Of a DNA stretch of 64,000 nucleotides, positions 3,401 through 55,922 are shown piece after piece. The notes beneath the pieces are model-generated. The model worked only from the letters and a program-made list of their open reading frames with translations. It was not told the origin of the DNA and ran no database searches. The position numbers and the translations under genes are program-made. The DNA is from Gossypium raimondii (lineage: Eukaryota; Streptophyta; Magnoliopsida; Malvales; Malvaceae): positions 7,879,001-7,943,000 of the forward strand of contig NC_068573.1 in the NCBI RefSeq assembly GCF_025698545.1, read 5' to 3'. The first letter of the stretch is position 1, and each line of letters starts with the position of its first letter.

Positions 3401-3640
3401 AAATAACATTGATAAATTTAACGGAACATAATTATATTCTCCACCATCTAGTAAAGATATTATTTTGAAGATAAAATGTAAAATAATGCTTTTCAATCTT
3501 TCCATAATAAAATCCTTTCACATAGTTTAAATTATTAAAGTTGTGAAAAATTAACCACAAAACTATCTAACCGCGAAGTTGATATTAAAGAAACAAGCTA
3601 ATCATAGATATTGAAGCTTGGCCATATGACTATTCCACAT
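481..3640. other. Intergenic flank of the array unit, T2a to P1
   Basis: AT-rich spacer with no convincing gene. It repeats almost base for base after T2b (9631-12820), after T2c (25375-28480) and, in a slightly diverged form, after genes A and B (52680-55900, 58690-61300). It contains the motif TCTATAAATAGAGA near 597, and a pyrimidine-rich stretch near 1380-1450 that resembles a 5' leader with a splice donor (AAAGGTTAGTC). From 2160 to 2900 it is very AT-rich and looks like old transposon sequence. No open frame longer than about 70 codons is supported. Confidence 0.6.
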
Positions 3641-3688
3641 TGATTAAATAGTAATATATTTGGTTGGTTGTAATTTTCTCAAAATTTC

Positions 3689-3695
3689 TATATAT
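3689..3695 (+). promoter_or_regulatory. Candidate TATA box of PG copy P1
   Basis: TATATAT lies 64 bp upstream of the ATG at 3753. The same motif sits 64-65 bp upstream of the start codon in P2, P3, A, B and C. Spacing and conservation fit a core promoter with a short 5' UTR. The promoter of the related cotton gene is pollen-specific, but no tissue-specific element can be proven from sequence. Confidence 0.45.
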
Positions 3696-3752
3696 TTGGA
3701 AAAAACAAAAGGAAAAGCCATTCTTCGTGTAATTTCAAAACCAAATAAAAAC

Positions 3753-8514: not shown

Positions 8515-9630
8515 ATGGCACCACACCTTAATATTGTTCCTTCCATGTTTGAGCTTTTCTTATTATTCATTTCACCTCTAAAGTTCAATCGAGCGGTATT
8601 GATGTTGTTGCCAAGTTTGGCACAAAAGCGAGGAAAATGATTTGAGCAAGGCAAGTTGAATTGCTCTTAACTTTATACCCAAAGGTGAAAATATGAAAAA
8701 AATTATATTTCAAGCGATGTCTTTATTCATTTCATTTTAGTCATTTTGGATGCTTGGAAAGAAGCATGTGCCTCTGTAACCCCATCAACAGTTTGTGATT
8801 CCTAAAGAGACATATATATTATCAAAAGTAAACTTAAAAGGTCCATGCAAGGCTCCTATTGAGATTAATGTTCAGGAGCTAATCGTGATGTGCTCGGTGA
8901 TCCTAATGCTTTCAAGGACCCTAATTGGGTTAGATTCTATAGTATTGAAAATTTCAAAATGTCAAGCGGAGGAATTTTTGATGGTCGGGAAGCATTGCTC
9001 ATGAGAAGAATAAAGATCCCCACAATGTGAATTTCGTTCCAAACTTCTTCTTTGTCGACTTTGTTTCTTCTTGCCAAAATTTATTTATTCTCTTTCCTCT
9101 TATTATTATCAAAATATAATTATAACTAACATCTTTGTTTCAGTATGTTACTTTGTTAACTCCAAAATTAAACGAGAATATAAGGTTTGACTTTGTGACC
9201 AATACATTGATACATGATATAACTAGCAAAGACAGATAAACTATTCCATGTGAATGTTTTGCATGCAAAAACATTACCCTCGAAAGTTTCAAGGTAGAGG
9301 CAATTAGATAGACCAAACACATATGCGATTCACATGGGCAAATCGACGGGGTAAATATTCGCTATGACATTAAAATGGTGATGATTGTATTTCTAGGAGA
9401 TGGCACTAAAACTCTAGACATAAAAGAAATAACTTGTGGACGGGACATGGTATAAGTATCGTAGTCTTGGAAAGTTCCCAAATGAAGAGCCAGTTGAGGG
9501 AGTTAAAGTCTCAAACCGCACCAACACTAATACTTGAATGGAGCTCGAATCAAAACTTAAGGTGAATCTCACAGGATAGTATCGGATATACATTTGAGGA
9601 TATTATCTGAATAATGTCTCTTCACCTATC
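8515..9630 (+). pseudogene. Truncated polygalacturonase copy T2b
   Basis: The ATG is at 8515 (MAPHLNIV). Exon 1 is 8515-8650 with the GC donor AAGGCAAG, exon 2 about 8741-9053, and exon 3 9177 to about 9630. As in T2a, exon 3 fuses at CCTATC (9624-9630) to downstream flank, so its end and exon 4 are lost. The NTD codons read NTY. Exon 2 is diverged: its first codon is TCA instead of CCA and its end reads CTTCTTCTT. Several CHG-site indels add frameshifts. The 5' flank is not PG promoter: LTR sequence abuts the leader at about 8460, so the TATATAT motif present in P-type copies is missing. The copy is non-functional. Confidence 0.8.
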
Positions 9631-12600
9631 TCTCGAAGAGAGGTGCGAAGCCCATACATATTCCTACTAGAGAATTATGTGTATTCTCTTTTAAAATGTT
9701 ATTATATTTTTCTTCTTCTTGTTAGACCAAGATCATTAAGATTTTTCTATAAATAGAGACCATAGGCTACGTCAACCACACGATGTGAAGCATCGACATC
9801 GTAAAACTTTATTGAGATTTAATTCAAAAAACTTCTAAATATGAATGTTTACTTTTTGCCCATAAAGGGACATCAATATTCCCCACTCCAACATCAATAG
9901 AAAGTTTTCATAGCTTTCATCCATTCATGGATTAGATCCTCACGCTTTAGCTAGCCGAGGTTTTGAATAGTTGAGAAGATGTGTTGGTAGAATATTGAGA
10001 AACAACTTAGACTGCCTAATCCAGAGCACAAGTATGATTTTGGTAAAAGGGTTTGTCCTATAAATATGACAACTGCTTGGGTTTAGAAATTTTTAATTTT
10101 TTTGGTGTTCAAAAAAATCATTTTCTAAACGAATGTTTCCAACACAATCAAGAATGATCTCTAATTTCTAAATTGAATAGGTCAGTAGTAATTACTAGGT
10201 CTTTACAGTCCACGGCCAAAACTGGCGCTTTTCTAATCTCCCAACTTCTTCGACAAACTTGCACAGCGTCTTTCTTCTCGAATGTTCAAATCTATTGGGG
10301 ACTCATTAACCACATTATTCGATAATGATGTGACACCATTTTATGTTTAATTATTGCATATAAAAAATTGAACCCCAAAAGGAGAATGAGAGAACATTTT
10401 GTGGAAGCTCAGATAAAGATTTTTAGAAAGGAGCGATATTTACATCGAGATTAAGTGTAGTGTTTGGGTATCTTGCGATTATCACTGAAAGATCCCTAAA
10501 TTTGTTGATGTGATTTGTAGTTTTTGCTTTTAGATTCTCAAAGGTTAGTCTCTTTTTCTTATTTTTGTGTGTTTGGCTTGAAACTTTTTTTTCATGGTTT
10601 CTTTTCTGATTCGGGGTTCATGTTGGAAATGCATTTAGAAAAGTAGCTAGGGTAGGAACATTAGAGTTTTCATTTCTATAGTAAAATGGGCATTTATCGT
10701 GACATCTAAAGTAATAAATTTGATCAAATTAAATCGTTATGGTCCAAGGCTTAGGGGATGTCCAAGTCGCAAGGAAAGTTTGGGAGATGCCTTCATTGCC
10801 TTGATCAATTTGAATAGTAGTCTAATGTCTTCAACCTTTCTCTCGAACGATTTTCTTCCCTATTCTTGAACACTCAGTGCTTGGAAAGTGGGATGTAACT
10901 GAAAAAGTAAAGCACAAGGCGTGAATCGAGACTTCTCAAGGAGCTACGCATCTAGCTCTTTCGTCCTATCCAAAGCGAAAAGAAGGCGTAAAGAGACTAA
11001 TCAAGGAGGTATGTCAACTACCTCTTTGTGTTCCACCCATTGAAAGCAACTCCTATAATTCAATTATTCTCTTGGAAGAATGTCATTATAATCTTAAAAA
11101 TCTAAATTACAAAGTCTAAAAGATAGAATTGATTTGAGTTGAAAGAAAATAGAATCTAACTAATATTTCAATAAATTTCAACAAATTGTCCTTGGTTTTT
11201 TTTTTTTTACATAAATTGGGTATTGATAAAGAAACATATGCAAGAGTTATATTTGTATCCGATGTACATAAAATAAATAATATAGAAGAACTAAAGTCCA
11301 ACTAGGACATTTTTAACCCCATGGCCAGCGACTCCAAGAGATAATTCTCTTTGTGTGCGGAGGCACACTTACCTTAGTGGTTTGTTCTCCAGTTTAATTA
11401 TACGAGCTTACCTCTCTTGACTTAAATAGGAAATCAAGACCATATGATTATCTAACCCAATAGCATATATTCTTCCATGAATTAAGTTTTTTGAAATTAA
11501 TTATTTCATTCAATTAAATAATTTCCACTACTTAATTTACAAAACCCCATTCAATTTTGCTAGAATCATGAAAGCTTTTCCATACTAGAATTTACATGCA
11601 AATTAATTTAATTATCTGAACAAAATATAACTACGTTAACTACTTAATTTATCCTCACTTTGGACTTATTTATTTAATTTATTCATTGAATTAAATAACA
11701 AACCGACTGAATTAAATTAATTTCGTGTCATCTTTTCCATTCTCATGAAATCGCATTTACATGGAATAGTAATTCATTCCATCTAATTCTAATATATCAT
11801 TTCATCCATGCATTCAATCGTTCTTATTATGCAATCTACTTAGAGTTATATTAAGCTAGCGGAGGATCGATCGTACATAAATAATTAGGGCTTAAATAAA
11901 ATCTTAATTAGAATTTATTTAGTTGTAGACTCAATCTACTAAAAGTACCATGATCGATCTCCCCAATATATAATGTTACGAAAGCTAAGCTTGTAAAGCT
12001 TTGTCCATTTACCTTGTCAAATGCATGTTACTATCATAGAATGCCGATCATCTATTTAGGTTCAATATTTTCCCACTAATTCGATCCATTTTATCTCATG
12101 GTCAGTTTGTATCTTCTAGAATGAGGGTAAAGGTGAACGTGAGGATTCATAAAAGGGTGATAATGAAAGGGTGGTGTTGGTGATGAAAAGTCATACCTTG
12201 TGAAATTCGATCGTGTTAGATGGGCATGATGATAAGAAATTACAAGATGCTTGAGAGAAGTTGAGAAATTAAAAGATAAAAGTAAATCTATTTGGAAAGA
12301 GAAGTCAAATGGCCATCGGGTTTTCACTAATAATTGTTACGTGGGTGAAGTTTAGGTGAAGTCCGGCGAATGTTAGCTCGACTAGGTATTATAGGGCCGG
12401 GAAAGCGGTGATTGAGAAGAGTGCTAGAAACCACGTAATTGCATTCGGCAATATGGTGTGAACCTTAAATCAACCACCAAACCACATTATTGTATCAACA
12501 ATTTTTATTGAATAATTAGGATTATACTTTTGAAATAACATTGATAAATTTAACGGAACATAATTATATTCTCCACCATCTAGTAAAGATATTATTTTGA

Positions 12601-12820
12601 AGATAAAATGTAAAATAATGCTTTTCAATCTTTCCATAATAAAATCCTTTCACATAGTTTAAATTATTAAAGTTGTGAAAAATTAACCACAAAACTATCT
12701 AACAAATGCGAAGTTGATATTAAAGAAACAAGCTAATCATAGATATTGAAGCTTGGCCATATGACTATTCCACATTGATTAAATAGTAATATATTTGGTT
12801 GGTTGTAATTTTCTCAAAAT
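9631..12820. other. Intergenic flank of the array unit, T2b to P2
   Basis: Near-identical repeat of 481-3640, with added small indels at CAG and CTG sites after about 10.4 kb (AACTGTATAAAG at 1264 reads AAGCTCAGATAAAG here). No gene is seen. Short open frames such as 12091-12327 minus are shadows that recur with the repeat. Confidence 0.6.
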
Positions 12821-12823
12821 TTC

Positions 12824-12830
12824 TATATAT
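12824..12830 (+). promoter_or_regulatory. Candidate TATA box of PG copy P2
   Basis: TATATAT, 65 bp upstream of the ATG at 12889, in the same context as in the other P-type copies. Confidence 0.45.
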
Positions 12831-12888
12831 TTGGAAAAAAACAAAAGGAAAAGCCATTCTTCGTGTAATTTCAAAACCAAATAAAAAC

Positions 12889-14380
12889 ATGGCACCACAC
12901 CTTAATATTGTTCCTTCCATGTTTGTGCTTTTATTATTATTCATTTCAGCCTCTAAAGTTCAATCAGGCGCTATTGATGTTGTTGCCAAGTTTGGCGCAA
13001 AAGCTGACGGGAAAACGGATTTGAGTAAGGCAAGTTGAATTGCTCTTAACTTTGTACCCAAAGGCAAAAATATGAAAAAAATTATATTTCAAACTGATGT
13101 CTTTATTCATTTCATTTTAGCCATTTTTGGATGCTTGGAAAGAAGCATGTGCCTCTGTAACCCCATCAATGTTGTGATTCCTAAAGGGACATATTTATTA
13201 TCAAAAGTAAACTTAGAAGGTCCATGCAAGGCTCTGTTGAGATTAATGTTCGAGGGCACTATAAAGGCTCGGTGATCCGGTGCTTTCAAGGACCCTAATT
13301 GGGTTAGATTCTATAGTATTGAAAATTTCAAAATGTCCGTGGAGGAATTTTCGATGGTCGGGAAGCATTGCTTATGAGAAGAATAAAGATCCCACAATCG
13401 TGCATTTCGTGTCAAACTCCCGTTGTCGCCTTTCTTCCCTCTTGCCAAAATTTATTTTTCTCTTTCCTCTTATTATTATCCAAATATAATTATAACTAAC
13501 ATCTTTGTTTAGTGTTACTTTGTTAACTCCAAAATTAAGCGAATATAAGGTTTGACTTTTTGACCAACGCATTGATACAAGATATAACTAGCAAAGACGA
13601 TAAACTATTCCACGTTAATGTTTTTGCATGCAAAACATTACCCTCGAGCGTTTCAAGGTAGAGGCACCGCGAGATAGCCCAAACACGGATGGGATTCACA
13701 TGGGCCAACCGACGGGGTAAATCTTATTGGATGTGACATTAAACTGGTGATGATTGTATTTCTATCGGAGATGGCACTAAAAATTTGGCCATAAAAGATA
13801 TCACTTGTGGACGAGGACATGGTATAAGTATCGGTAGTCTTGGAAAGTACCCAAATGAAGAGCAGTTGAGGAGTTAAAGTCACAAAGCGCACCATCACTA
13901 ATACTTGAATGGAGCTCGAATCAAAACTTGGCGAGCGAATCTCACGGGTAGTATCGGATGTACATTTTGAGGATATTATCGTGAATAATGTCTCTTCCCT
14001 ATCCTAATTGATCAAAATATTGCCCATGGAGCAAATGCAAGATAAATGTATGTACATTCTTATCAAAATCCTAATAGAGTGACAATATTTAATTGATCAT
14101 TGAATCATTGTTGTGTTGATGCGGGAAGAATCGAAAGTTAAACTAAGCAACATTAGCTTCAAGAACATCCGTAGCACATCTGCGCTTCCGAAGCTATCAA
14201 GTTTATTTGCAGTGGTTCTTCGCCATGTCAAAATGTGGAACTTGCAGGACATTGATATTAAGCACACCGGACTGAACCCATAACATCCCAATGTTTGAAT
14301 GTCAAGCCTATAACTAGTGGAAAATTAAACCCGACTCCATGTTCCATTACATCCCAAAAACCCTAAGTGCCACCGCTTAA
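12889..14380 (+). pseudogene. Polygalacturonase copy P2, intact exon 1, broken exons 2-4
   Basis: Exon 1 (12889-13029, 141 bp) is identical in layout and frame to gene B and encodes the signal peptide and AIDVVAKFGAKADGKTDLSK. Exon 2 is 13121-13424 (304 bp against 312), exon 3 13542-14047 (506 against 516), exon 4 14125-14380 (256 against 258). The missing bases again sit at CAG/CTG/CCAGG sites: the CAGATG of NTDG is CGGATG, GGACCAGG is GGACGAGG, and the acceptor AAACAG is AAGCG. The single-G loss at GTTGAGGAGTT (near 13868) is shared with P1, T2c and A and may be real. As written it cannot encode a full enzyme; the assembly caveat applies strongly. Confidence 0.75.
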
Positions 14381-15702
14381 AGCATACCAACAAATTCAAT
14401 GCAATTGTAATTAATATATTTATTCATATTACATAAAAGCAGTTCTTTTCATTTTAATTCTTTTCCATTATTAAACTTTTGCTATGAATTCAATGCTTTT
14501 AATACACACATCAATACAAAGAGCGAAATGTGATAAAATTTAGTTAATTTAAACTAATAACAAAACCATCAATGAGTTTCTAGATTGAATTAGAATTAAT
14601 TATTGAAATTTTCTTTATCTACGTACAATTTTTTATAAAAACCATCTCCCAACACGCGAGTTTTAAGGAAAAATAAAATATTAAATTTGAGATTTTAATT
14701 AAAATGAAAGTTAAATCGTCAAATTTTTGAACAACATATTCTGTATTATTTGTGTGCTTAAATATATGATTATATTTGTGCATTGGTTTGTTTCTTTTTA
14801 CATTGACGTAACATTTTTCATGAAAGAAGATGTGATGGTTACCATGAGATATGATAATATCATTTTGGGTGAACGGATATAAATGAAAGGGATTGGGGAT
14901 ATCCTATGAGGCTATAGCACATCTGAAAAATTCATTGGACGAGCACTTGGTGAGTTGTTTTCATAATGAGTTACAATAAGAAGAGGTCGGTCATGACACT
15001 TAAGTACAAACTATTCGAGCTCTAATTATATATCCAGTGGGCCCCTCTATTAGCTCTATAGATTCTCGAAGGTTTGCATTTGAATTGATGAGATGAATAA
15101 ATAAAATTGATGAATTACAGAAAAGGATTGAATGTATCACTATCCGTAGTGAATGGAATTTCTCGTTATAAAAGAGAGATGACTTAAAGACTAAATTAAT
15201 TTATTCGAATTATTATTTAATTAATAGAAATCACTGAACCGGTGTTTGAAGTAAAATTAAATTAATTAATAAACATAATCTGGTTGAACAAGATAATTAA
15301 ATTCATTTACTCATAGATTCTAGTGTGGTAAATATGTCATGAATTTAACGGAACTAGAACTAGGTTTGGAAAATAATTTAATTGTGTGAATTAGTAAAAT
15401 TTATTTCAATTAATTAATTAAATTATTAATATTTTGGGAAATAGAAAATTTTTTATTTGGTTGGTTAAATTATATGAGTCGATTAAATTACTAAATGGCA
15501 CATATAATTACACCAAATACATGAGATAGACCCGATGACCCATCTCACGTAAGATGGGCGACAACCCTATCTCTAAAGAGAGGGTGTTGAAGCCCATACA
15601 TATTCCTACTAGAGAATTATGTGTATTCTCTCTTAAAATGTTATTATATTTTTTCTTCTTCTTGTTCGACCAAGACTCTTGCGATTTTCTATAAATAGAG
15701 AG
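14381..15702. other. 3' flank of PG copy P2
   Basis: Repeat of 5240-6562. It ends at the TATAAATAGAGAG motif directly before the target-site copy of the LTR element. No gene is seen. Confidence 0.6.
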
Positions 15703-15707
15703 CATAG
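15703..15707. repeat. Target site duplication CATAG (left)
   Basis: CATAG precedes the TG of the element at 15708 and recurs directly after its terminal CA at 23775-23779. A 5-bp direct duplication is typical of LTR retrotransposon insertion. Confidence 0.8.
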
Positions 15708-17595: not shown

Positions 17596-17597
17596 AG

Positions 17598-23779: not shown

Positions 23780-24723
23780 GCTTGGTCAACCACACACGAT
23801 GTGAAGCACCGACATCGTAAAACTTTATTGAGATTTAATTCAAAAAAAATTCTAAATATGAATGTTTGCTTTTTTAGTTTTTGGCCCATAAAGGGACATC
23901 AATATTCGCCACTCCAACATCAATAAAAAGTTTTCATAGCTTTCATCCGTTCATGGATTAGAGCCTACGCTTTAACTAGCCGAGGTTTTTGAATAGTTGA
24001 GAAGATCGTGTTGGTAGAATATTGAGAAACAACTTAGACCGCCTAATCCGGAGCACAAGTATGATTTTGGTAAAAGGGTTTGTCCCTATAAATATGAGAA
24101 CTGCTTGGGTTTTGAAAATTTTAATTTTTTTGTTGTTCAAAAAAATTATTTTCTAAACGAATGTTTCCAACACAATCAAGAATGATCTCTAATTTCTAAA
24201 TTGAATAGGTCAGTAGTAATTACTAGGTCTTTCGGTCCACACCAAAGCGGGCGCTTTTCTAATCTCCCAACTTCTTGACAAACTTGCACACGTCATCTTC
24301 TCGAATGTTCGAATCTATTGGGGACTCATTAACCACATTATTCGATAATGATGCGACACCATTTTATGTTTAATTATTGCATATAAAAAAAATTGAACCC
24401 CAAAAAGGAGAATGAGAGAACATTTTGTGGAACTGTATAAAGATTTTTAGAAAGGAGCGAGATTTACATCGAGATTAAGTGTAGTGTTTGGGTATCTTGC
24501 GATTATCACTTAAAGATCCCTAAATTTGTTGATGTGATTTGTAGTTTTTGCTTTTAGATTCTCGAAGGTTAGTCTCTTTTTCTTATTTTTGTGTGTTTGG
24601 CTTGAAACCTTTTTTTCATGGTTTCTTTTCTGATTCGGGGTTCATGTTGGAAATGCATTTAGAAAAGTAGCTAGGGTAGGAACATTAGAGTTTTAATTTC
24701 TATAGTAAAATGAGAATTTATCT
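23780..24723. other. Array flank between element 1 and T2c
   Basis: Matches 52811-53755 of the uninterrupted unit. At about 24722 (GAGAATTTATC) it jumps directly into the 3' part of PG exon 2, so about 2.2 kb of flank, promoter, exon 1 and the first part of exon 2 are missing. No gene is seen. Confidence 0.65.
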
Positions 24724-25374
24724 TGATGGTCGGGAAGCATTGCTCATGAGAAGAATAAAGATCCCCACATGTGAATTTAGTTTCCAAACTTCTTCTTTGT
24801 CGACTTTGTTTCTTCTTGCCAAAATTTATTTATTCTCTTTCCTCTTATTATTATCAAAATATAATTATAACTAACATCTTTGTTTAGTATGTTACTTTGT
24901 TAACTCAAAATTAAACGAGAATATAAGGTTTGACTTTGTGACCAATACATTGATACATGATATAACTAGCAAAAGCGATAAACTATTCCATGTGAATGTT
25001 TTGCATGCAAAACATTACCCTCGAAAGTTCAAGGTAGAGGCGCCATTAGATAGACCAAACACATCACGATTCACATGGGCCGTCAGGGCGGGTAAATATT
25101 CTTGGCTATGACATTAAAAGCTGGTGATTGTATTTCTAGGAGATGGCACTAAAACTCTAGACATAAAAGAAATAACTTGTGGACGGGACATGGTATAAGT
25201 ATCGTAGTCTTGGAAAGTTCCCAAATGAAGAGCAGTTGAGGAGTTAAAGTCTCAAAGCGCACCAACACTAATACTTGAATGGAGCTCGAATCAAAACTTG
25301 GAAGGTGAATCTCACAGGGATAGTATCGGATATACATTTGAGGATATTATCTGAATAATGTCTCTTCACCTATC
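24724..25374 (+). pseudogene. Truncated polygalacturonase copy T2c
   Basis: Only the 3' end of exon 2 (24724-24798, with GGTCGGGAAGCATTGCTC) and exon 3 (24920-25374) remain. The exon 2 end has the T2-type CTTCTTCTTTGTCGAC and exon 3 ends in the T2-type fusion CCTATCTCTGAAG. The NTD region reads ACACATCACGATTC, so the motif is lost. The block is full of CHG-site scrambles (GGCAAATCAGACGG reads GGCCGTCAGGGCGG). There is no promoter, start or exon 4. Confidence 0.8.
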
Positions 25375-28300
25375 TCTGAAGAGAGGTGCGAAGCCCATAC
25401 ATATTCCTACTAGAGAATTGTGTATTCTCTTTTAAAATGTTATTATTTTTTCTTCTTCTTGTTAAACCAAGGCTGTTAAGATTTTTCTAAATAGAGACCA
25501 TAGGCTAAATCAACCACACGATGTGAAGCATCGACATCGTAAAACTTTATTGAGATTTAATTCAAAAAACTTCTAAATATGAATGTTTACTTTTTTGCCC
25601 ATAAAGGGACATCAATATTCCCCACTCCAACATCAATAGAAAGTTTTCATAGCTTTCATCCATTCATGGATTAGATCCTCACCTTTAGCTAGCGAGGTTT
25701 TGAATAGTTGAGAAGATGTGTTGGTAGAATATTGAGAAACAACTTTGCCTAATCGAGCACAAGTATGATTTTGGTAAAGGGTTTGTCCTATAAATATGAC
25801 AAGCTTGGGTTTAGAAATTTTAATTTTTTGGTGTTCAAAAAATCATTTTCTAACGAATGTTCCAACACAATCAAGAATGATCTCTAATTTCTAAATTGAA
25901 TAGGTCGATAGTAATTACTAGGTCTTTACAGTCCACGGCCATGGCGCTTTTCTAATCTCCAACTTCCGACAAACTTGCAGTCTTTCTTCTCGAATGTTCA
26001 AATCTATTGGGGACTCATTAACCACATTATTCGATAATGATGTGACACCATTTTATGTTTAATTATTGCATATAAAAAATTGAACCCCAAAAGGAGAATG
26101 AGAGAACATTTTGTGGAGCGTATAAAGATTTTTAGAAAGGAGCGATATTTACAGATTAAGTGTAGTGTTTGGGTATCTTGCGATTATCCTTGAAAGATCC
26201 CTAAATTTGTTGATGTGATTTGTAGTTTTTGCTTTTAGATTCTCAAGGTTAGTCTCTTTTCTTATTTTGTGTGTTTGGCTTGAAACTTTTTTCATGGTTT
26301 CTTTTTGATTCGGGGTTCATGTTGGAAATGCATTTAGAAAAGTAGCTAGGGTAGGAACATTAGAGTTTTCATTTCTATAGTAAAATGGGCATTTATCGTG
26401 ACATCTAAAGTAATAAATTTGATCAAATTAAATCGTTATGGTCCAAGGCTTGGGGATGTCAAGTGCATGAGAAAGTTTGGGAGATGCCTTCATTGCCTTG
26501 ATCAATTTGAATAGTAGTCTAATGTCTTCAACCTTTCTCTTGAGCGATTTTCTTCCTATTCTTGAACACTTTCGAGTTGCTTGGAAAGTGGGATGTAGCT
26601 GAAAAAGTAAAGCACAAGGCGTGAATCGAGACTTCTCAAGGAGCTACATCTAGCTCTTTCGTCCTATCCAAAGCGAAAAGAAGGCGTAAAGAGACTAATC
26701 AAGGAGGTATGTCAACTACCTCTTTGTGTTCCACCATTGAAAGCAACTCCTATAATTCAATTATTCTCTTGGAAGAATGTCATTATAATCTTAAAATCTA
26801 AATTACAAAGTCTAAAAGATAGAATTGATTTGAGTTGAAAAAATAGAATCTAACTAATATTTCAATAAATTTCAACAAATTGTCCTTGGTTTTTTTTACA
26901 TAAATTGGGTATTGATAAAGAAACATATGCAAGAGTTATATTTGTATCCGATGTACATAAAATAAATAATATAGAAGAACTAAAGTCCAACTAGGACATT
27001 TTTAACCCCATGGCCGTGACTCCAAGAGATAATTCTCTTTGTGTGGGAGGCACACTTACCTTAGTGGTTTGTTCTCGGTTTAATTATCGAGCTTACCTCT
27101 CTTGACTTAAATAGAAATCAAGACCATATGATTATCTAACCCAATAGCATATATTCTTCCATGAATTAAGTTTTTGAAATTAATTATTTCATTCAATTAA
27201 ATAATTTCCTACTTAATTTACAAAACCCATTCAATTTTGCTAGAATCATGAAAGCTTTTCCATACTAGAATTTACATGCAAATTAATTTAATTATCTGAA
27301 CAAAATATAACTCGTTAACTACTTAATTTATCCTCACTTTGGACTTATTTATTTAATTTATTCATTGAATTAAATAACAAACCGACAGATTAAATTAATT
27401 TGTGTCATCTTTTCCATTCTCATGAAATCGCATTTACATGGAATAGTAATTCATTCCATCTAATTCTAATATATCATTTCATCCATGCATTCAATAGTTC
27501 TTATTATGCAATCTACTTAGAGTTATATTAAGCTAGCGGAGGATCGATCGTACATAAATAATTAGGGCTTAAATAAAATCTTAATTAGAATTTATTTAGT
27601 TGTAGACTCAATCTACTAAAAGTACCATGATCGATCTCCCCAATATATAATATTCACAGCTAAATGTAAGCTTTGTCCATTTACCTTATCAAATGCATGT
27701 TACTATCATAGAATGCCGATCATCTATTTAGGTTCAATATTTTCCCACTAATTGATCCATTTTATCTCATGGTGGGTTTGTATCTTCTAGAATGAGGGTA
27801 AAGGTGAGCGTGAGGATTCATAAAGGGTGATAATGAAAGGGTGGTGTTGGTGATGAAAAGTCATACCTTGTGAAATTCGATCGTGTTAGATGGGCATGAT
27901 GATAAGAAATTACAAGATGCTTGAGAGAAGTTGAGAAATTAAAAGATAAAAAATAAATCTATTTGGAAAGAAAGTCAAATGGCCATCAGGTTTTCACTAA
28001 TAATTATTACGTGGGTGAAGTTTGAAATTTGAAGTCAGGCGAATGTTAGCTCGACTAGGTATTATAGGGCCGGAAAGCGGTGATTGAGAAAGTGCTAGAA
28101 ACCACGAGTGCATTCGGCAATATGGTGTGAACCTAATCAACCACCAAACCATTCTTTATATCAACAATTTTTATTGAATAATTAGGATTATACTTTTGAA
28201 ATAACATTGATAAATTTAACGGAACATAATTATATTCTCCACCATCTAGTAAAGATATTATTTTGAAGATAAAATGTAAAATAATGCTTTTCAATCTTTC

Positions 28301-28480
28301 CATAATAAAATCCTTTCACATAGTTTAAATTATTAAAGTTGTGAAAAATTAACCACAAAACTATCTAACAGTGCGAAGTTGATATTAAAGAAACAAGCTA
28401 ATCATAGATATTGAAGCTTGGCCATATGACTATTCCATTGATTAAATAGTAATATATTTGGTTGGTTGTAATTTTCTCAA
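25375..28480. other. Intergenic flank of the array unit, T2c to P3
   Basis: Third copy of the 481-3640 flank, shorter by about 50-100 bp through many 1-3 bp losses at CAG, CTG and homopolymer sites. No gene is seen. Confidence 0.6.
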
Positions 28481-28486
28481 AATTTC

Positions 28487-28493
28487 TATATAT
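28487..28493 (+). promoter_or_regulatory. Candidate TATA box of PG copy P3
   Basis: TATATAT, 64 bp upstream of the ATG at 28551, in the context conserved among P-type copies. Confidence 0.45.
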
Positions 28494-28550
28494 TTGGAAA
28501 AAACAAAAGGAAAAGCCATTCTTAGTGTAATTTCAAAACCAAATAAAAAC

Positions 28551-30013
28551 ATGGCACCACACCTTAATATTGTTCCTTCCATGTTTGTGCTTTTATTATT
28601 ATTCATTTCACCTCTAAAAGTTCAATCGGGCGCTATTGATGTTGTTGCCAAGTTTGGCGCAAAAGCTGACAGGAAAAGCAGTTTGAGTAAGGCAAGTTGA
28701 ATTGCTCTTAACTTTGTACCCAAAGGCAAAATATGAAAAAATTATATTTCAATGATGTCTTTATTCATTTCATTTTAGCCATTTTGGATGCTTGGAAAGA
28801 AGCATGTGCCTCTGTAACCCCATCAGTTGTGATTCCTAAAGGGACATATTTATTATCAAAAGTAAACTTAGAAGGTCCATGCAAGGCTCTGTTGAGATTA
28901 ATGTTGAGGGGCTATAAAGGCTCAAGTGATCGGTGCTTTCAAGGACCCTAATTGGGTTAGATTCTATAGTATTGAAAATTTCAAAATGTCCGTGGGAGGA
29001 ATTTTTCGATGGTCGGGGAAGCATTGCTTATGAGAAGAATAAAGATCCCCACAATCGTGCATTTAGTGTCAAACTCCCGTTGTCGATTTCTTCCCTCTTG
29101 CCAAAATTTATTTTTCTCTTTCCTCTTATTATTATCCAAATATAATTATAACTAACATCTTTGTTTAGTGTGTTTGCTATTGCTCAAAATTAAGCGAATA
29201 TAAAGGTTTGACTTTTTGACCAGCATTGATACAAGATATAACTAGCAAAGGCATTAAACTATTCCACGTTAATGTTTTGCATGCAAAACAATACCCTCGA
29301 GCGTTTCAAGGTAGAGCCGCGGCGAATAGCCCAAACACGGATGGGATTCACATGGGCCGTCGGACGGGGTAAATCTTATTGGATGTGACATTAAATGGTG
29401 ATGATTGTATTTCTATCGGAGATGGCACTAAAAATTTGGCCATAAAAGATATCACTTGTGGACGAGGACATGGTATAAGTATCGGTAGTCTTGGAAAGTA
29501 CCCAAATGAAGAGCAGTTGAGGGAGTTAAAGTCTAAAGCGCACCATCACTAATACTTGAATGGGCTCGAATCAAAACTTGGCGGCGAATCTCACAGGGTA
29601 GTATCGAGATGTACATTTTGAGGATATTATCGTGAATAATGTCTCTTCCCTATCCTAATTGATCAAAAATATTGCCCATGGAGCAAATGCAAGATAAATG
29701 TATGTACATTCTTATCAAAATCCTAATAGAGTGACAATATTTAATTGATCATTGAATCATTGTTGTGTTGATCGGGAAGAATCGAAAGTTAAACTAAGCA
29801 ACATTAGCTTCAAGAACATCAAGTAGCATCTGCGCTTCCGAAGCTATCAAGTTTATTCTGGTTCTTAGCCATGTCAAAATGTGGAACTTGGACATTGATA
29901 TTAAGCACAGGACTGAACATAACATCCCAATGTTTGAATGTCAAGCCTATAACTAGTGGAAAATTAAACCCGACTCCATGTTTCATTACATCCCAAAACC
30001 CTAAGTGCCAAGC
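28551..30013 (+). pseudogene. Polygalacturonase copy P3, heavily scrambled
   Basis: Exon 1 is 28551-28691 and stays open for 47 codons, although TTTCAGCCTCT has become TTTCACCTCT and a compensating A keeps the frame. Exon 2 is 28779-29081, exon 3 29197-29699, exon 4 from 29776. The stop context CACCGCTTAAAGC reads CAAGCAAAGC, so the original stop is lost. Unlike P1, P2 and A, it keeps GGG at GTTGAGGGAGTT. Nearly every other difference from gene B sits at a CAG/CTG/CCAGG/CCTGG or CG site while the bases between are identical. As written it is a pseudogene. It is the copy for which sequencing or consensus error is most likely to be the main cause. Confidence 0.7.
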
Positions 30014-31311
30014 AAAGCATACCAACAAATTCAATGCAATTGTAATTAATATATTTATTCATATTATAAAAGCAGTTCTTTTCATTTTAATTCTTTTCCA
30101 TTATTAAACTTTTGCTATGAATTCAATGCTTTTAATACACACATCAATACAAAAGAGAAATGTGATAAAATTTAGTTAATTTAAACTAATAACAAAACCA
30201 TCCTTGAGTTTCTAGATTGAATTAGAATTAATTATTGAAATTTTCTTTATCTACATACAATTTTTTATAAAAACCATCTCCCAACACAATGAGTTTTAAG
30301 GAAAAATAAAATATTAAATTTGAGATTTTAATTAAAATGAAAGTTAAATCGTCCAATTTTTGAACAACATATTCTGTATTATTTGTGTGCTTAAATATAT
30401 GATTATATTTGTGCATTGGTTTGTTTCTTTTTACATTGGCGTAACATTTTCATGAAAGAAGATGTGATGGTTACCATGAGATATGATAATATCATTTTGG
30501 GTGAAACGGATATAAATGAAAGGATTGGGGATATCCTATGAGGCTATTTATCGAAAAATTCATTGGGCGAGCACTTGGTGAGTTGTTTTCATAATGAGTT
30601 ACAATAAGAAGAGGTCGGTCATGACACTTAAGTACAAACTATTGAGCTCTAATTATATATCCGATGGGCCCTCTATTAGCTCTATAGATTCTCGAAGGTT
30701 TGCATTTGAATTGATGAGATGAATAAATAAAATTGATGAATTCTGAGAAAAGGATTGAATGTATCACTATCCGTAGTGAATGGAATTTCTCGTTATAAAG
30801 AGATGACTTAAAGACTAAATTAATTTATTGAATTATTATTTAATTAATAGAAATCATGAACCGGTGTTTGAAGTAAAATTAAATTAATTAATAAGCAATC
30901 TGGTTGAACAAGATAATTAAATTCATTTACTCATAGATTCTAGTGTGGTAAATATGTCATGAATTTAACGAACTAGAACTAGGTTTGGAAAATAATTTAA
31001 TTGTGTGAATTAGTAAAATTTATTTCAATTAATTAATTAAATTATTAATATTTTGGGAAATAGAAAATTTTTATTTGGTTGGTTAAATTATATGAGTCGA
31101 TTAAATTACTAAATGGCACATATAATTACAAATACATAGAGATAGACCGATGACCCATCTCACGTAAGATGAGCGACCCTATCTCTAAAGAGAGGTGTTG
31201 AAGCCCATACATATTCCTACTAGAGAATTATGTGTATTCTCTCTTAAAATGTTATTATATTTTTCTTCTTCTTGTTAGACCAAGACTCTTGCGATTTTTC
31301 TATAAATAGAG
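30014..31311. other. 3' flank of PG copy P3
   Basis: Repeat of 5240-6562 with scattered CHG-site changes (AACACAGCAGTTTT reads AACACAATGAGTTTT). No gene is seen. Confidence 0.6.
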
Positions 31312-31316
31312 CATAG

Positions 31317-34300
31317 TGTTGACACCATTTTTGGATGAAGCAGGGTCAACTTGGGTTTTGAAAAATGAAATCAAATGTGGGGTCGCCACCAATCCTTTTT
31401 GATGAGGTGTGATCGGGTCACCGAAAAGTGGTTGTTTTAACAAGCGATTTTATTAAAACAACAATTTTGGTCTCTGAAATTGAAAAATGGGTTGAATTCG
31501 ATTCTGAGCGAGAAAGTTAGCACCTCGTCGCCCAAAATTGGTACCTAGTTGATTACTTAATGTCTTGGTGTCGAAAATTAAAACTTCGAAAAGAATTGAA
31601 AAATCGATCCCTCTTTATATTGTGTTATTTTAAAAATACTGAATAAATCAAAATGGAAAATGCCTCTTTATCTAGGAGTAACAAGATGTCACATCCGATT
31701 AAGTTAGGACCACGACACCTCGTATTTTTGAGAGTAAGCTTACCTTTTATTTTATTTAAACCTCATTTATTTGATTTTAAAAGGATATTTGGTTATTTAG
31801 GATCAATCGAGAAAAATCGACTCGATGAGTTAGAGGCCGATTTTCTCGAATTTTCTATCTGGGAATATTGTTTTATTTTTGAAATTTTATGTGTTCAAAA
31901 TTTAAAGGACATTTGCTATTTGGGTTTAACGAAAATCGAGACCAGATAAGTTAAGGTACAATTTCTCAAATTTCAAAATGCAAAATATTGCTTTATTTTT
32001 CTAAAAATCTTTTTAATAATAATGCGAGTACCACACTTGAATAGCGTACATTTGTTCCATTTGTGATGAAATAGAAAGATTTATTGTAAATAAATACAAA
32101 TCAAAGCAAATTTTAATGTGATGAAATGAAATGGAAGGATAAAGGAACATAGTATAATGAATTACGAAATAGATAATCCATAAATGCATGCCAAATACAA
32201 GAATACAAATAAGCAAATCATAGTATATACAATGTCAATAAACACATGACGTAGATAATCTTAATATCAACATTAATAATCCAAGGAAAATAAAAAAAGG
32301 CAATCTAAAGTAAAAAATAATTTAAAATAGATGCTTTAAGTACAATAAGTAATAAAAGTTTTAAACAAAAAAATATATAAGAAAACTTAAAGTAAATATT
32401 TAATAAAATAGTTCGAAATAAATAACATTATACATAAAAATAATGATAATAAATGCAAGCAGTTTTGAAAGGTATGTACATATATATATATTTAAAAAGA
32501 AAAGAAAAATTTGAGCGATATGCATATATATATATAGTAAGTTACAATGAATATATATAAAAAAACTTTAAAATAAGTTATATATAGCTGTTTAAAGTAA
32601 ATAATATACATAAAACTTAAAATTAATGAGGATAAAAAATTTAATATAACAATAAATAAATGAAATGGACTAGGATGATATTGAAAGCTAACAAAATTTG
32701 GGGTTTTAATTGCAAAACCATAAACAAGTCTCGAGGGATTAATATGCAGCCTTGAGAATGGAGACTATTAGGGCAATAAACCCGATCCTAGAGTGCAAGG
32801 TTTGTATGAGGGCATACATGGTCAAAGGACTGATTGAAGCAAAAACAAAATTAGCGGTCTAAATTGAAAATAAAAAGATAGATTGCACCTCAGCAAGATG
32901 GAGGGACTAGCTGCGTAATTTACCCATTAGGGCAAAACATTTGCATATTCCCCCATCAAATGGCGTATCCGATGGATAATAAAAACTAAAATGGTTTTAT
33001 TTAGTTCACTTTTGATTTTCTAAAAGAAAAAAGCAGAGAAGCCTCGACTTTCTCAACCCCCCTTTTTCTTAAATGACCGATGGCCCTAAGACCTCCGTGC
33101 CACCAAACCAATGACCGTATTTGTAAAATGGGCCGATTAGCCCCAGTCCCACGGCCTCCTTGAGAGCCAAGACTCTCTCCACCCGTGGGAGTCCTCTGTA
33201 GTCAGGGAGGTAAGACTCTCTCCACCCGTGGGAGCCAAGACTCCTCTGTAGTCAGGGAGGTAAAATCGCCATCGATCGCCCGGCTGCCAAATACAGGGAA
33301 GGCAAGATCTACAATCTTCAATCTATTCCGCCAAATACGGAGATAGAGTTATCGGCTTCAATGTACTCCCTCATGGTCGGAGGTAAAATCTTCCATCTTG
33401 ATGCCTTGTTGCCAAATCTGAGAATGCAAGATGCAAATCTTCAATCTATTCCACTTCCAAATACGGGAGATAGAGTTATCGGCTTCAATGTACTCCTCTG
33501 TAGTCGGGATGTAAAATCGCCATCTTGATCTTGCTTTGCCAAATCTGAAGGCTAGATCGCAATCTTCAATCTATCCTTTGCAACTTGAGTATAGGATCTG
33601 ATTTCTTTGATCATTCTGCAGGGAACCACGACACATAAAATCCACTTTATGGACCTATTTATGCCTAGTGTTTAGGATGACATGATCGAATAAATTAAAT
33701 GCTCCTAACTAGATGTGTATGAATGATTTTTGCATGAATGTAGAATGTCATGAGAATGATCCCTTTTTTTGTTGTTATCGTTCCTCGTTATTCATCAAGG
33801 TTCTATCACTGATGTTTTCTCGTTCAGCAAGTATCTTTGACAGAAGATTCAAAGAAATAGTCTCAATTTAGACTATCCTTTCTCAAATGTTTTCAACCCT
33901 CAGGTTTGGTCAGTTCTAAACAATAGTCCTGTTTCAGGTCCTCGTATTATTTAGAAACTTTCAGAGTAATATGCAAAACTCCTTTTGCATGAGTATTGTC
34001 AATCCATTAATCGTTATTTCAATGAAAAATGCTTGAAAAAGATTATCAAAATAAATGAAATTTTGTTGAAAAAGCTCTAAACAAACAAATCAATCAAGAC
34101 AGAAAATTTTCTTTGAGATCTGAGATGTATAAGATGAAAAAGATTATCACAATGGATAAGATGGAAATTTGTTGAGAGCAAAAGCTCTAAATGAACAAAT
34201 TAATCAAGATAGCAAATTTTGCTAGAATAAAAATGAGAATAAATTAATCAAGATGGCGTATTTGGTCAAAATACAAAAATGAATAAAATGGAAATAGGTG

Positions 34301-35732
34301 CCCAGGATATCATAGCATGAGCTTCTGCGCTTTAAGCGCTTGAGGACCCTTTTGAACTTGATATGTGTCTAGAAGTCCTAGAAGAATTTGTTGATGCCCT
34401 AAGATGTAGCATCTCTCCTTCTTATTAATTCGGAGGGCAAGATTCTGCATGCCCTTTGATCAAAATTTGAGCTGCCCATTCTTGGGTTTTCAATTCAATA
34501 CCCCTTTGGTCTCAAAGGCGCCCTTTGCGGGTTTCACCTTAGCCTCCTTTTATTTTCTTTTTTCTTTTCTTTTTCATTTTCTTTTTTCTTTCGTTTTTCA
34601 AGTGAAGTATTTATTACTGAATCAAAATTACGAAGATTAAGCGGGTTCTTGTCATCCATCTTGGTCATCTTGGCGCTCTCTTAGATAAGGCCTTCCATAA
34701 GGTCCTTGGGATTTAGCATCCACTTTTTTGAAGTCTTTACGTATGGGAATGATTTTTTCGATACATTGCTCCTCATAGAATTACGGGGTGAACCTTTTGG
34801 TGAGCTCGCGTCTTTATTTTGGTGCTTTTGACCAAGCGGATAACTTTGAATCTTTCATTTTCAATCAAATTGCATTCATCATCAAGCTTGGATTTGCTTC
34901 ATCCAAATTCAACTCGACAAGATTGAAGGGTAGAAATATCAACTTTGATGGGTAAAACTACCTCTATTCCATATACTAGTGGGAAATGTTGCCGGTGAGG
35001 TATTTTCTTTTATTTGGTTTTTGTTTTTTGCTTTTTATTTTCGTTTTTTTACTTTTTTTTGCTTTTGCCCCATGACTGTTCATTTTGAGGCGATATAGTG
35101 TTAATCTTGAGCAGGCTAAAACTTCGATGTCGTGCGGTTGTTCAAATTCAATGCATTGTCTAATATGATCCTTTTGGCATTCCATATTGACATATGATTC
35201 TTCAAAATTTGTTGATTATCGACTTTGTGATATTGGCATATGAGCGGCTTCCACCGCCTAATGAAATGTCGATGACTACAAAGATGACTCGATGACGCTA
35301 GAAGCTTTTGCGAGATTAGCCCAATGACCTCCATGCCCCACATAGAAAGGTCATGGAAAAGTCATAACATGAATAGATGGAGTACACAATTTTTCCGTAA
35401 ATTTGGCCCTTGTGGCGTTTCTTGATATCTTGATAATCCCTTCCATGGTGGACCGGCCAGTACCCATATCTCATGATTCACTTGGCCATTGCAAAATCAA
35501 TGCATGTGTTCCTCGGACACCCGTATAGACCTCTTCAAGATCTTCTTTTCCTTAAGGCGTCCACGTCTTTGTAGCTCAAGCATATCTTGATCATGTGAAA
35601 ACATCTTTGAATGACATCTCGCCGTCTCTGCGGTGATCTGAGGCTCGATCTTCACCTTTTCTCTTCTCTAAGCTCACAATTTCAATGATTTTTTTGTAAG
35701 GTAGGATTTGCTTTTGACTTGCTCTACCATCC
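31317..35732 (-). mobile_element. Truncated copy of the LTR element, element 3
   Basis: Begins TGTTGACACC after GCATAG at the same array position as the elements at 6563 and 15708. It runs through left LTR (to about 33145), tandem repeats (about 33150-33600), 3' internal region and integrase remnants (about 34610-35400 minus, with VIGLISQK and IRRWKPLICQY debris), into the pre-reverse-transcriptase segment. There it stops at about 35732 (CTCTACCATCC) and joins array flank CCAACACAATCAAG. There is no right LTR. It is a scrambled copy of the left part of element 1 with the same truncated LTR/repeat junction, so both descend from one insertion. Confidence 0.8.
33150..33600 (-). repeat. Tandem repeats in element 3
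   Basis: Same arrangement as 17598-18115: short CCACCCGTGGGAGTC copies, then about 2.5 copies of the 134-bp monomer, here with many CAG/CTG changes (CCAAATACAGG reads CCAAATCTGAG). Confidence 0.65.
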
Positions 35733-36670
35733 AACACAATCAAGAATGATCTCTAATTTCTAAATTGAATAGGTCAGTAGTAATTACTAGGTCTTTACGG
35801 TCCACACCAAAGCGGCGCTTTTCTAATCTCCCAACTTCTTCGACAAACTTGCAGCGTCTGTCTTCTCGAATGTTCGAATCTATTGGGGACTCATTAACCA
35901 CATTATTCGATAATGATGCGACACCATTTTATGTTTAATTATTTCATATAAAAAATTGAACCCCAAAAGGAGAATGAGAGAACATTTTGTGGGCGTATAA
36001 AGATTTTTAGAAAGGAGCGAGATTTACATCGAGATTAAGTGTAGTGTTTGGGTATCTTGCGATTATCACTTAAAGATCCCTAAATTTGTTGATGTGATTT
36101 GTAGTTTTTGCTTTTAGATTCTCGAAGGTTAGTCTCTTTTTCTTATTTTTGTGTGTTTGGCTTGAAACCTTTTTTTCATGGTTTCTTTTCTGATTCGGGG
36201 TTCATGTTGGAAATGCATTTAGAAAAGTAGCTAGGGTAGGAACATTAGAGTTTTAATTTCTATAGTAAAATGAGAATTTATCGTGACATCTAAAGTAATA
36301 AATTTGATCAAATTAAATCGTTATGGTCCAAGGCTTAGGGGATGTCCAAGTCATAGCGAAAGTTTGGGAGATGCCTTCATTGTCTTGATCAATTGAATAG
36401 TTGTCCAATGTCTTCAACCTTTCTCTTGAGCGATTTTCTTCCCAATTCTTGAACACTCGGTGCTTGGAAAGTGGGATGTCTTTGAAAAGTAAAGCACAAG
36501 GCGTGAATCGAGACTTCTCAAGCGACTATGCATCTAGCTCTTTCGTCCTATCCAAAGTGAAAAGAAGGCGTAAACCGAGACTAATCAAGGAGGTATGTCA
36601 ACTACGTCTTTGTGTTCTACCCAATCAAAAACAACTCCTATAATTCACTTATTCTCTTTAGAAGAATGTC
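35733..36670. other. Array flank between elements 3 and 2
   Basis: Matches 53205-54150 of the uninterrupted unit and ends GAAGAATGTC, where element 2 is inserted; the flank resumes at 48127. No gene is seen. Short frames (36401-36643) are chance. Confidence 0.6.
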
Positions 36671-45540: not shown

Positions 45541-45541
45541 C

Positions 45542-48126: not shown

Positions 48127-49900
48127 AATGTCATTATAATCTTAAAAATCTAAATTACAAAGTCTGAAAAGATAGAATTGATTTGAGTTGAAAGAAAATA
48201 AAATCTAACTAATATTTCAATAAATTTCAACAAAGTTTTCTCTTAGTATATATTGTCCTTGGTTTTTTTTTTTACATAAATTGGGTATTGATAAAGAAAC
48301 ATATGATAGAGTTATATTTGTATCCGATGTACATAAAACAAATAATATAGAAGAACTAAAGTCCAACTAGGACATTTTTAACCCCATGGCCAGCGACTCC
48401 AAGAGATAATTCTCTTTGTGTGCGGAGCCACACTTACCTTAGTGGTTTGTTCTCCAGTTTAATTATACGAGCCTACCTCTCTTGACTTAAATAAGAAATC
48501 AAGACCATATGATTATCTAACCCAATAGCATATATTCTTCCATGAATTAAGTTTTTTGAAATTAATTATTTCATTAAATTTAATTATTTCCACTACTTAA
48601 TCTACAAAACCCCATTCAATTTTTGTTAGAATCATGAAAGCTTTTCCATACTAGAATTTACATGCAAATTAATTTAATTATTTGAACAAAATATAACTAC
48701 GTTAACTACTTAATTTAATCCTCACTTTGGACTTATTTATTTAATTTATTCATTGAATTAAATAACAAACCGACGGAATTAAATTAATTTCGTGTCATCT
48801 TTTCCATTCTCATGAAATCGCATTTACATGGAATAGTAATTCATTCCATCTAATTCTAATATATCATTTCATCCATGCATTCAATCAGTTCTTATTATGC
48901 AATCTACTTAGAGTTATATTAAGCTAGCAGAGGGATCGATCGTACATAAATAATTAGGGCTTAAATAAAATCTTAATTAGAATTTATTTAGTTGTAGACT
49001 CAATCTACTAAAAGTGCCATGATCGATCTCACCAATATATAATGTTACGAAAGCTAAGCTTGTAAAGCTTTGTCCATTTACCTTGTCAAATGCATGTTAC
49101 TATCATAGAATGCCGATCATCTATTTAGGTTCAATATTTTCCCACTAATTCGATCCATTTTATCTCATGGTCAGTTTGTATCTTCTAGAATGAGGGTAAA
49201 GGTGAACGTGAGGATTCATAAAAGGGTGATAATGAAAGGGGTGGTGTTGGTGATGAAAAGTCATACCTTGTGAAATTCGATACGTGTTAGATGGGGATGA
49301 TGATAAGAAATTACAAGATGCTTGAGAGAAGTTGAGGAAATTAAAAGATAAAAGTAAATCTATTTGGAAAGAGAAGTCAAATGGCCATCAGGTTTTCACT
49401 AATAATTGTTACGTGGGTGAAGTTTAGGCTGAAGTCCAGGGCGAATGTTAGCTCGACTAGGTATTATAGGGCCAGGAAAACAGTGATTGAGAAGAGTGCT
49501 AGAAACCACCAGAATTGCATTCGGCAATATGGTGTGAACCTTCGTCAACCACCAAACCACATTACTGTATCAACAATTTTTATTGAATAATTAGGATTAT
49601 ACTTTTCGAAATAACATTGATAAATTTAACGGAACATAATTATATTCGCCACCATCTAGTAAAGATATTATTTTGAAGATAAAATGTAAAATAATGCTTT
49701 TCAATCTTTCCATAATAAAATCCTTTCACATAGTTTAAATTATTAAAGTTGTGAAAAAATTAACCACAAAACTATCTAACAAATGCGAAGTTGATATTAA
49801 AGAAACAAGCTAATCATAGATATTGAAGCTTGGCCATATGACTTTTCCACATTGATTAAATAGTAATATATTTGGTTGGTTGTAATTTTCTCAAAATTTC
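48127..49900. other. 5' flank of PG gene A
   Basis: Clean copy of the array flank (matches 54143-55915, and 1945-3688 more loosely). It is AT-rich and no gene is supported. A 69-codon frame at 49381-49590 is identical at 55397-55606, but this follows from unit duplication. Confidence 0.6.
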
Positions 49901-49907
49901 TATATAT
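49901..49907 (+). promoter_or_regulatory. Candidate TATA box of PG gene A
   Basis: TATATAT, 65 bp upstream of the ATG at 49966. Confidence 0.5.
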
Positions 49908-49965
49908 TTGGAAAAAAACAAAAGGAAAAGCCATTCTTCGTGTAATTTCAAAACCAAATAAAAAC

Positions 49966-51480
49966 ATGGCACCACACCTTAATATTGTTCCTTCCATGTT
50001 TGTGCTTTTATTATTATTCATTTCAGCCTCTAAAGTTCAATCAGGCGCTATTGATGTTGTTGCCAAGTTTGGCGCAAAAGCTGACGGGAAAACGGATTTG
50101 AGTAAGGCAAGTTGAATTGCTCTTAACTTTGTACCCAAAGGCAAAAATATGAAAAAAATTATATTTCAAACTGATGTCTTTATTCATTTCATTTTAGCCA
50201 TTTTTGGATGCTTGGAAAGAAGCATGTGCCTCTGTAACCCCATCAACAGTTGTGATTCCTAAAGGGACATATTTATTATCAAAAGTAAACTTAGAAGGTC
50301 CATGCAAGGCTCCTATTGAGATTAATGTTCAGGGCACTATAAAGGCTCCGGCTGATCCCAGTGCTTTCAAGGACCCTAATTGGGTTAGATTCTATAGTAT
50401 TGAAAATTTCAAAATGTCCGGCGGAGGAATTTTCGATGGTCAGGGAAGCATTGCTTATGAGAAGAATAAAGATCCCCACAATCGTGCATTTCGTGTCAAA
50501 CTCCCCGTTGTCAGCTTTCTTCCCTCTTGCCAAAATTTATTTTTTCTCTTTCCTCTTATTATTATCCAAATATAATTATAACTAACATCTTTGTTTCGTG
50601 TGTTACTTTGTTAACTCCAAAATTAAACAGAATATAAGGTTTGACTTTTTGACCAACGCATTGATACAAGATATAACTAGCAAAGACAGTAAACTATTCC
50701 ACGTTAATGTTTTTGCATGCAAAAACATTACCCTCGAACGTTTCAAGGTAGAGGCACCGGCAGATAGCCCAAACACAGATGGGATTCACATGGGCAAATC
50801 AGACGGGGTAAATCTTATTGGATGTGACATTAAAACTGGTGATGATTGTATTTCTATCGGAGATGGCACTAAAAATTTGGCCATAAAAGATATCACTTGT
50901 GGACCAGGACATGGTATAAGTATCGGTAGTCTTGGAAAGTACCCAAATGAAGAGCCAGTTGAGGAGTTAAAGTCACAAACTGCACCATCACTAATACTTC
51001 GAATGGAGCTCGAATCAAAACTTGGCCAGGCGAATCTCCTGGGGTAGTATCAGATGTACATTTTGAGGATATTATCGTGAATAATGTCTCTTCCCCTATC
51101 CTAATTGATCAAAAATATTGCCCATGGAGCAAATGCAAGATAAATGTATGTACATTCTTATCAAAATCCTAATAGAGTGACAATATTTAATTGATCATTG
51201 AATCATTGTTGTGTTGATGCAGGAAGAATCGAAAGTTAAACTAAGCAACATTAGCTTCAAGAACATCCGTGGCACATCTGCGCTTCCAGAAGCTATCAAG
51301 TTTATTTGCAGCGGTTCTTCGCCATGTCAAAATGTGGAACTTGCAGACATTGATATTAAGCACACCGGACCTGAACCCGCAACATCCCAATGTTTGAATG
51401 TCAAGCCTATAACTAGTGGCAAATTAAACCCGACTCCATGTTCCAGCCCTGTCCCAAAAACCCTAAGTGCCACCGCTTAA
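49966..51480 (+). pseudogene. Exopolygalacturonase copy A, single 1-bp frameshift
   Basis: Four exons: 49966-50106, 50198-50509, 50631-51145 and 51223-51480. Intron 1 is GC-AG (AAG/GCAAGT), introns 2 and 3 are GT-AG. The protein is identical to gene B through the signal peptide, NTD, GDDC and GPGHG motifs. In exon 3 one G is missing at GTTGAGGAGTT (50959-50969; B has GAGGGAG), so the frame ends 26 codons later with MELESKLGQANLLG, losing the RIK motif and the C-terminus. Exon 4 is intact. The same one-base loss occurs in P1, P2 and T2c, which argues for an inherited mutation rather than a random error, though a GGG homopolymer is also a classic error site. A truncated, probably inactive, secreted pectinase is the likely product. 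Confidence 0.85.
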
Positions 51481-55915: not shown

Positions 55916-55922
55916 TATATAT
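55916..55922 (+). promoter_or_regulatory. Candidate TATA box of PG gene B
   Basis: TATATAT, 65 bp upstream of the ATG at 55981, giving an expected 5' UTR of about 30-40 bases. Confidence 0.5.

Follow-up and report, generated by a model that had tools for sequence, protein, structure and literature searches.

Excess differences at CAG/CTG and CG sites between tandem gene copies of Gossypium raimondii are very probably, for the most part, consensus errors

In this analysis we ask why copies of one tandem repeat in the Gossypium raimondii assembly differ so often at CAG, CTG and CG sites, and whether these differences are mutations at all. CG and CHG are the symmetric methylation contexts of plants. 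Judging from the sequence, we consider it very likely that the excess of copy differences at these sites consists mainly of consensus errors and not of mutations.

The window, that is the whole stretch of 64,000 nucleotides that was analysed (C9:7879001-7943000), belongs to an assembly of 750.8 Mb in 281 contigs. It contains a tandem array with units of about 6 kb carrying glycosyl hydrolase family 28 (polygalacturonase-type) genes, and BLAST within the window shows that retroelement-like sequence interrupts this array. The frame at 56613-57188, an ORF of 191 aa, matches PF00295 with an E-value of 2.7e-64. The parts of the window that are compared are the following:

475..6562, + strand: U1, an altered repeat unit (changed cytosines CWG 68/140, CG 54/240, CHH 112/1594)
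9625..15707, + strand: U2, an altered repeat unit (changed cytosines CWG 88/140, CG 67/240, CHH 130/1594)
25369..31316, + strand: U3, the unit in which an earlier note on this DNA made its finding, scored against U4
52670..58828, + strand: U4, the intact-looking reference unit, which contains the open frame 56613-57188
48127..64000, + strand: control region of intact-looking units and part units, giving four pairs
24714..35732, + strand: the block with the heaviest alteration, collinear with 8972-20342, of which it is a copy (BLAST identity 93.7% in an alignment of 11434 columns containing 300 gap openings)

An LTR-retrotransposon-like insertion at 36671-48127 begins with TGTTGACACC, has CA at its end and is bordered by a 5-base direct repeat, ATGTC, at 36666-36670 and 48128-48132. 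The retroelement copies contain 134-bp tandem repeats at 17620-18187 and about 40474-41651. There are 62 CTG in 40001-42000, so CTG is not depleted in that stretch.

We compared four full units, U1, U2, U3 and U4. A reference based on private changes, which requires the other three units to agree, was tried and dropped: since alterations at a site are shared by several units, most CWG sites were lost under this rule, and U4, which differs from its neighbour copies chiefly by single substitutions, was therefore chosen as the reference for scoring changes in U1, U2 and U3. Events longer than 15 columns were left out of the event counts, among them the gap of 18 bases that U1, U2 and U3 each show relative to U4. 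Cytosines were scored by the trinucleotide starting at each of them on both strands, which doubles n at symmetric sites.

The central claim of the earlier note, that the differences cluster at CHG sites, is borne out. From U4 to U3, 59 of the 70 CAG/CTG are changed (84%) compared with 17% of all trinucleotides, and in the tabulation by trinucleotide context that had been proposed as a check, CAG/CTG comes top among the 32 strand-collapsed classes. Other classes are changed at 19/34 (CGC), 24/43 (CCG), 34/63 (ACG) and 42/100 (CGA). Counted per cytosine, the alterations amount to 118/140 for CWG, 24/43 for CCG, 119/240 for CG and 232/1594 for CHH, with an odds ratio of 31.5 for CWG against CHH (p 9e-67, both strands of a site being counted). 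The CCWGG sites named in the claim are altered in five of five cases in U3, and all five rewrites given as examples can be located in the U4-U3 alignment: GGACCAGG to GGACGAGG, AAACTGCACC to AAAGCGCACC, GGCCAGGCG to GGCGGCG, TCTCCTGGGG to TCTCACAGGG and AAAACTGGTG to AAATGGTG.

Three statements of the note need adjustment. It spoke of some CG being changed, which is correct but understates how heavily CG is altered in U3. The bases between sites were called essentially identical; this is only partly right, as outside CWG or CG with one base on either side there are still 2.66 events per 100 bp between U4 and U3, which we attribute to paralogue divergence together with shortening of homopolymers. 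The extent had been given as 24200-35732, where the sequence is indeed altered, but the alteration is wider and also covers 475-6562 and 9625-15707. The change rates in U1 and U2 are lower than in U3, with a similar order of contexts. Between U1 and U2 (1-8462 and 9166-17596), 101 of 145 events lie in CWG or CG with one flanking base, which make up 13.7% of the columns. Over five altered pairs the per-event enrichment in CWG and CG is 3.4-5.1 fold, and control contexts are also enriched there, by 1.7-1.9 fold.

In silenced plant repeats, deamination of 5-methylcytosine gives C>T and G>A at CG and CHG contexts. As a control, intact-looking copies at 48-64 kb were compared as four pairs, each scored in both directions. 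CAG/CTG is changed at 24/230 in these pairs and all trinucleotides at 4.6%; CGC ranks first (19/105) and CAG second, and 116 of the 141 events are single substitutions. There is thus a mild CG/CHG excess between intact-looking copies, as expected from deamination. The per-event enrichment in CWG and CG reaches 1.9-4.2 fold in the four pairs, and because altered and intact-looking pairs are both enriched, it cannot separate them on its own. What distinguishes the altered units is how often each site is changed and in what way, and not the per-event fold.

Over the whole window CAG occurs at 0.62 and CTG at 0.58 of the frequency expected at first order, and across 20 sampled 10-kb loci CAG/CTG lies at 0.31-1.05 of expectation. 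The depletion in these loci is in keeping with consensus error, but we set it aside as proof because it is indistinguishable from the outcome of deamination in old repeats. The lowest of the 20 loci (C9:7859001-7869000) has CAG/CTG at 0.31 and TAG/CTA at 1.27 of expectation, a shortage that may be due to deamination in old repeats.

Could the altered units then be pseudogenes, decaying by deamination of methylated copies and neutral drift? The sites lost are CG and CHG, the contexts that deamination targets, and 23 of the 116 in-context U4-U3 events are C<>T or G<>A. But the products oppose deamination as the main cause, since C>T or G>A is not the main change at methylated contexts in U3. Simple C>T accounts for only 4 of the 118 altered CWG cytosines in this unit, which agrees with the earlier statement that the changes are not C-to-T decay, and for 11 of the 119 altered CG cytosines. 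Most of the changes are indels or rewrites: among in-context events, 74/116 between U4 and U3, 59/78 between U1 and U2 and 135/180 between U2 and the block belong to the indel or multi-base kind, compared with 8/44 CWG and CG events in the intact-looking pairs. Even with the C>T and G>A found at CHG in a 5S array described below, we regard this decay as an extremely improbable account of the altered units.

Indels and multi-base changes would be produced if excision or mismatch repair of 5-methylcytosine (CHG, CG) were error-prone and scrambled sites in silenced copies. Such repair predicts the same context focus, the altered copies lie within repeats that may be silenced, and the small events in U3 add up to a net loss of 193 bases. 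We know of no process that scrambles methylated CHG and CG sites through error-prone repair, and consider it very improbable here. Several observations speak against it, the first being that the same edits recur with their 5' context at unrelated sites.

This recurrence is visible in the products. The 132 CAG site-copies of the three altered units include 34 that are unchanged and 32 with changed flanks, and the products are CGG (17), CG (8), CGA (6) and CGAG (2). CTG, with 78 site-copies of which 26 are unchanged and 18 have changed flanks, becomes TG (11) or CG (3). Among 187 pairs of changed U3 sites that share a core and the left dinucleotide, 19 carry identical edits; shuffling gave a mean of 7.4 and at least 19 in 3/5000 shuffles, in a test that took in only the 87 changed U3 sites with intact flanks. 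Two rules stand out on the + strand of U3, both from tests that, like those for strand, were devised post hoc. RA before a cytosine becomes RG at 11/33 CG/CHG cytosines and 3/119 CHH, and a cytosine after TT becomes A at 8/27 CG/CHG cytosines and 0/117 CHH. The first rule is weak on the + strand of U2 (5/33 CG/CHG, 2/119 CHH) and U1 (2/33, 2/119), so that only the heavily altered U3 shows it clearly. A single rule that holds across CG and CHG and is seldom seen at CHH points to an effect of the methyl group as such on the reading of the sequence.

The changes also differ between strands. RACG becomes RGCG at 7/17 sites on the + strand of U3 and 0/14 on the - strand (p 0.009, post hoc), and at 11/51 and 0/42 when the three units are pooled, a count in which homologous sites are re-used. 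In U3, changes of the CAG>CG type are found at 11/44 on + and 1/26 on -, and TTCG>TTAG at 5/23 and 0/19; loss of the C after TT at CG has no strand bias (+ 4/23, - 3/19), and the CAG bias is weaker in the 33.2-35.7 kb part of the block (7/26 and 4/39). Strand-symmetric mutation requires equal rates, which RACG>RGCG in U3 does not have, and one would not normally expect mutation of double-stranded DNA to favour one strand throughout a block. This bias is a second point against error-prone repair. Its sign supports repair to some degree: the bias falls on the + strand in all three altered units of contig C9, CAG>CG-type changes on contig C6 lean likewise, and this constancy is odd for random reads, since reads from both strands should yield either sign. 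A scan of repeat pairs (270 BLAST rows, at least 400 columns, at least 85% identity, each pair in both directions) gave + against - counts of 83/34 for CAG>CGG, 24/4 for ACG>GCG and 23/1 for TTCG>TTAG, with sites re-used and with real C/T change contaminating CAG>CGG. At 20-24 kb and at 40-44 kb CAG>CGG has the opposite sign (0 and 3), in numbers too small to settle the matter.

A third observation concerns homopolymer runs. Of the 208 runs in U3, 26 are shorter, 1 is longer and 127 are the same; the other 54 could not be scored. The ratio of shorter to longer runs is 19:4 in U1 and 15:3 in U2. The shortening speaks against error-prone repair, and in U3 it is as in nanopore consensus sequence.

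The block itself takes in the last part of a polygalacturonase-type gene, a complete repeat unit and a portion of a retroelement. When 9166-20342 is compared with 24909-35732, 191 events are shorter in the block and 28 in the other copy, and for homopolymer indels the numbers are 45 and 9. A direct repeat of about 560 bp lies beside the block on both sides:

24166..24726, + strand: left copy of the direct repeat (97.2% identity to 35730-36286, 11 differences)
35730..36286, + strand: right copy of the direct repeat (97.2% identity to 24166-24726)

This layout raises the question whether the block at 24.7-35.7 kb is additionally a misjoined or gap-filled noisy duplicate of 8972-20342, in which case the copy number would be partly false. 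At the left edge the events per 250 bp climb from 1 at 24500-24726 to 7 and 12 past 24.73 kb, and the BLAST matches overlap by 13 bases at the left join, both of which, like the flanking repeat, would fit a misjoin. But the left edge was scored against different references on its two sides (U4, then U2), the right edge has no clear step, with 12 events in 35500-35732 and 11 in the next bin, and an identical layout results when tandem repeats undergo genuine unequal exchange. A misjoin therefore seems to us possible but rather doubtful; it supplements consensus error as an explanation and does not replace it. The block at 24714-35732 may be a thinly covered or gap-filled stretch.

Sequences beyond the window show some of the same features. 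In a related array on contig C6, CAG/CTG is the most-changed class between two units, with 33/71 and 15/53 in the two directions. The rewriting rules do not clearly recur there: RACG>RGCG was absent from six C6 comparisons, in which TTCG>TTAG occurred twice on + and twice on -. A further comparison is offered by 5S rRNA genes, whose sequence should be nearly constant. We scored them against a reference from contig C205, without counting insertions and with all 13 C205 genes included. These 13 genes have changes at 16/234 CHG positions, 0/104 CG and 5/1157 others, and the 11 genes on contig C202 at 23/198 CHG, 5/88 CG and 18/979 others. Some rewrites are identical on the two contigs. CG is altered in the block, yet unchanged in the C205 genes. 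Arrays of 5S rRNA genes with units of about 302 bp are present at three loci, L029 (C9:15250001-15256000), L030 and L031. The C9 5S array has diverged further and is of mixed character: C>T and G>A occur in it at CHG as well, and identical CHG rewrites are found in several of its units, which could be real decay or a real variant subfamily. That 5S genes are altered at CHG with other positions mostly intact again argues against error-prone repair; that methylated CHG and CG sites are truly being scrambled, with a strand bias and under the direction of their context, so as to erase silenced copies and even 5S genes, strikes us as highly improbable.

Consensus error at methylated sites had been ranked first among the explanations in the earlier note, ahead of error-prone repair, and the tests of rewriting rules, strand, homopolymers, control pairs and 5S genes support this ranking. 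The observed basis is the context focus, the repeated products, the strand bias of the block, the homopolymer shortening and the CHG focus elsewhere in the genome. The assembly would rest at least partly on nanopore-type reads of native DNA, in which 5-methylcytosine in CG and CHG sites would shift the signal, and a base-caller untrained on plant CHG methylation would then rewrite the methylated cytosine and the bases immediately preceding it. The errors would sit in methylated, presumably silenced, copies and repeats, and unmethylated copies would be read correctly. The stretch at 24.7-35.7 kb was probably also thinly covered or unpolished, because homopolymers are shortened there too, and true paralogue divergence lies beneath these changes.

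Known errors of base-calling give this explanation some precedent. Default-model ONT base-callers have been reported to do poorly at the Dcm motifs CCAGG/CCTGG, which accounted for about 70% of consensus errors with the versions then current, and homopolymer length was the next class of consensus error (PMC6591954). As described in that study, the Dcm errors of K. pneumoniae (Wick et al. 2019, PMC6591954) resemble the present changes in their focus on a 5-methylcytosine motif, with homopolymers next, and in persisting into the consensus; they differ in that here CHG and CG sites generally are affected, in a plant genome. Modification-mediated errors have likewise been described as persisting into assemblies and as strongly reduced by whole-genome amplification (PMC10687267). 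These Listeria errors (Chiou et al. 2023, PMC10687267) are also systematic and fall at modified motifs outside base-caller training, but they are bacterial, and amplification removed most of the problem there. Plant methylation that differs from the training species has been named as a likely cause of lower nanopore accuracy (PMC9749173; PMC7501810); the statements drawn on here concern native plant DNA in general, and unlike our counts include no per-trinucleotide spectrum such as CAG>CGG. The literature searched yielded no error spectrum of this kind for plants, which is not to claim that none is in print; PMC10027222 and PMC12931034 contributed nothing to the question. Of the traits of modification-driven error, concentration at methylation motifs is seen, as sequence contexts, in U3 and the control pairs, homopolymer-length deletions form a further class in U3, U1 and U2, and the product is set by the local k-mer in U3 and weakly so in U1 and U2.

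If the altered sites are such errors, the genome itself does not have this feature. These copies should not be taken as evidence of gene loss, because the pattern agrees better with the way nanopore-type sequencers are known to misread methylated DNA than with real mutation. Frameshifts, pseudogene calls, repeat ages and paralogue divergence would be unreliable in methylated regions of the assembly, and even 5S genes would appear damaged. The same errors would provide a crude methylation footprint in finished sequence, in which intact CAG/CTG mark unmethylated copies. Other plant assemblies can be scanned for the signature, which is the loss of CAG/CTG with CAG>CGG, CG or CGA and, in the block, also RACG>RGCG and TTCG>TTAG. 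Should the changes be real biology instead, they would represent a new mutational process.
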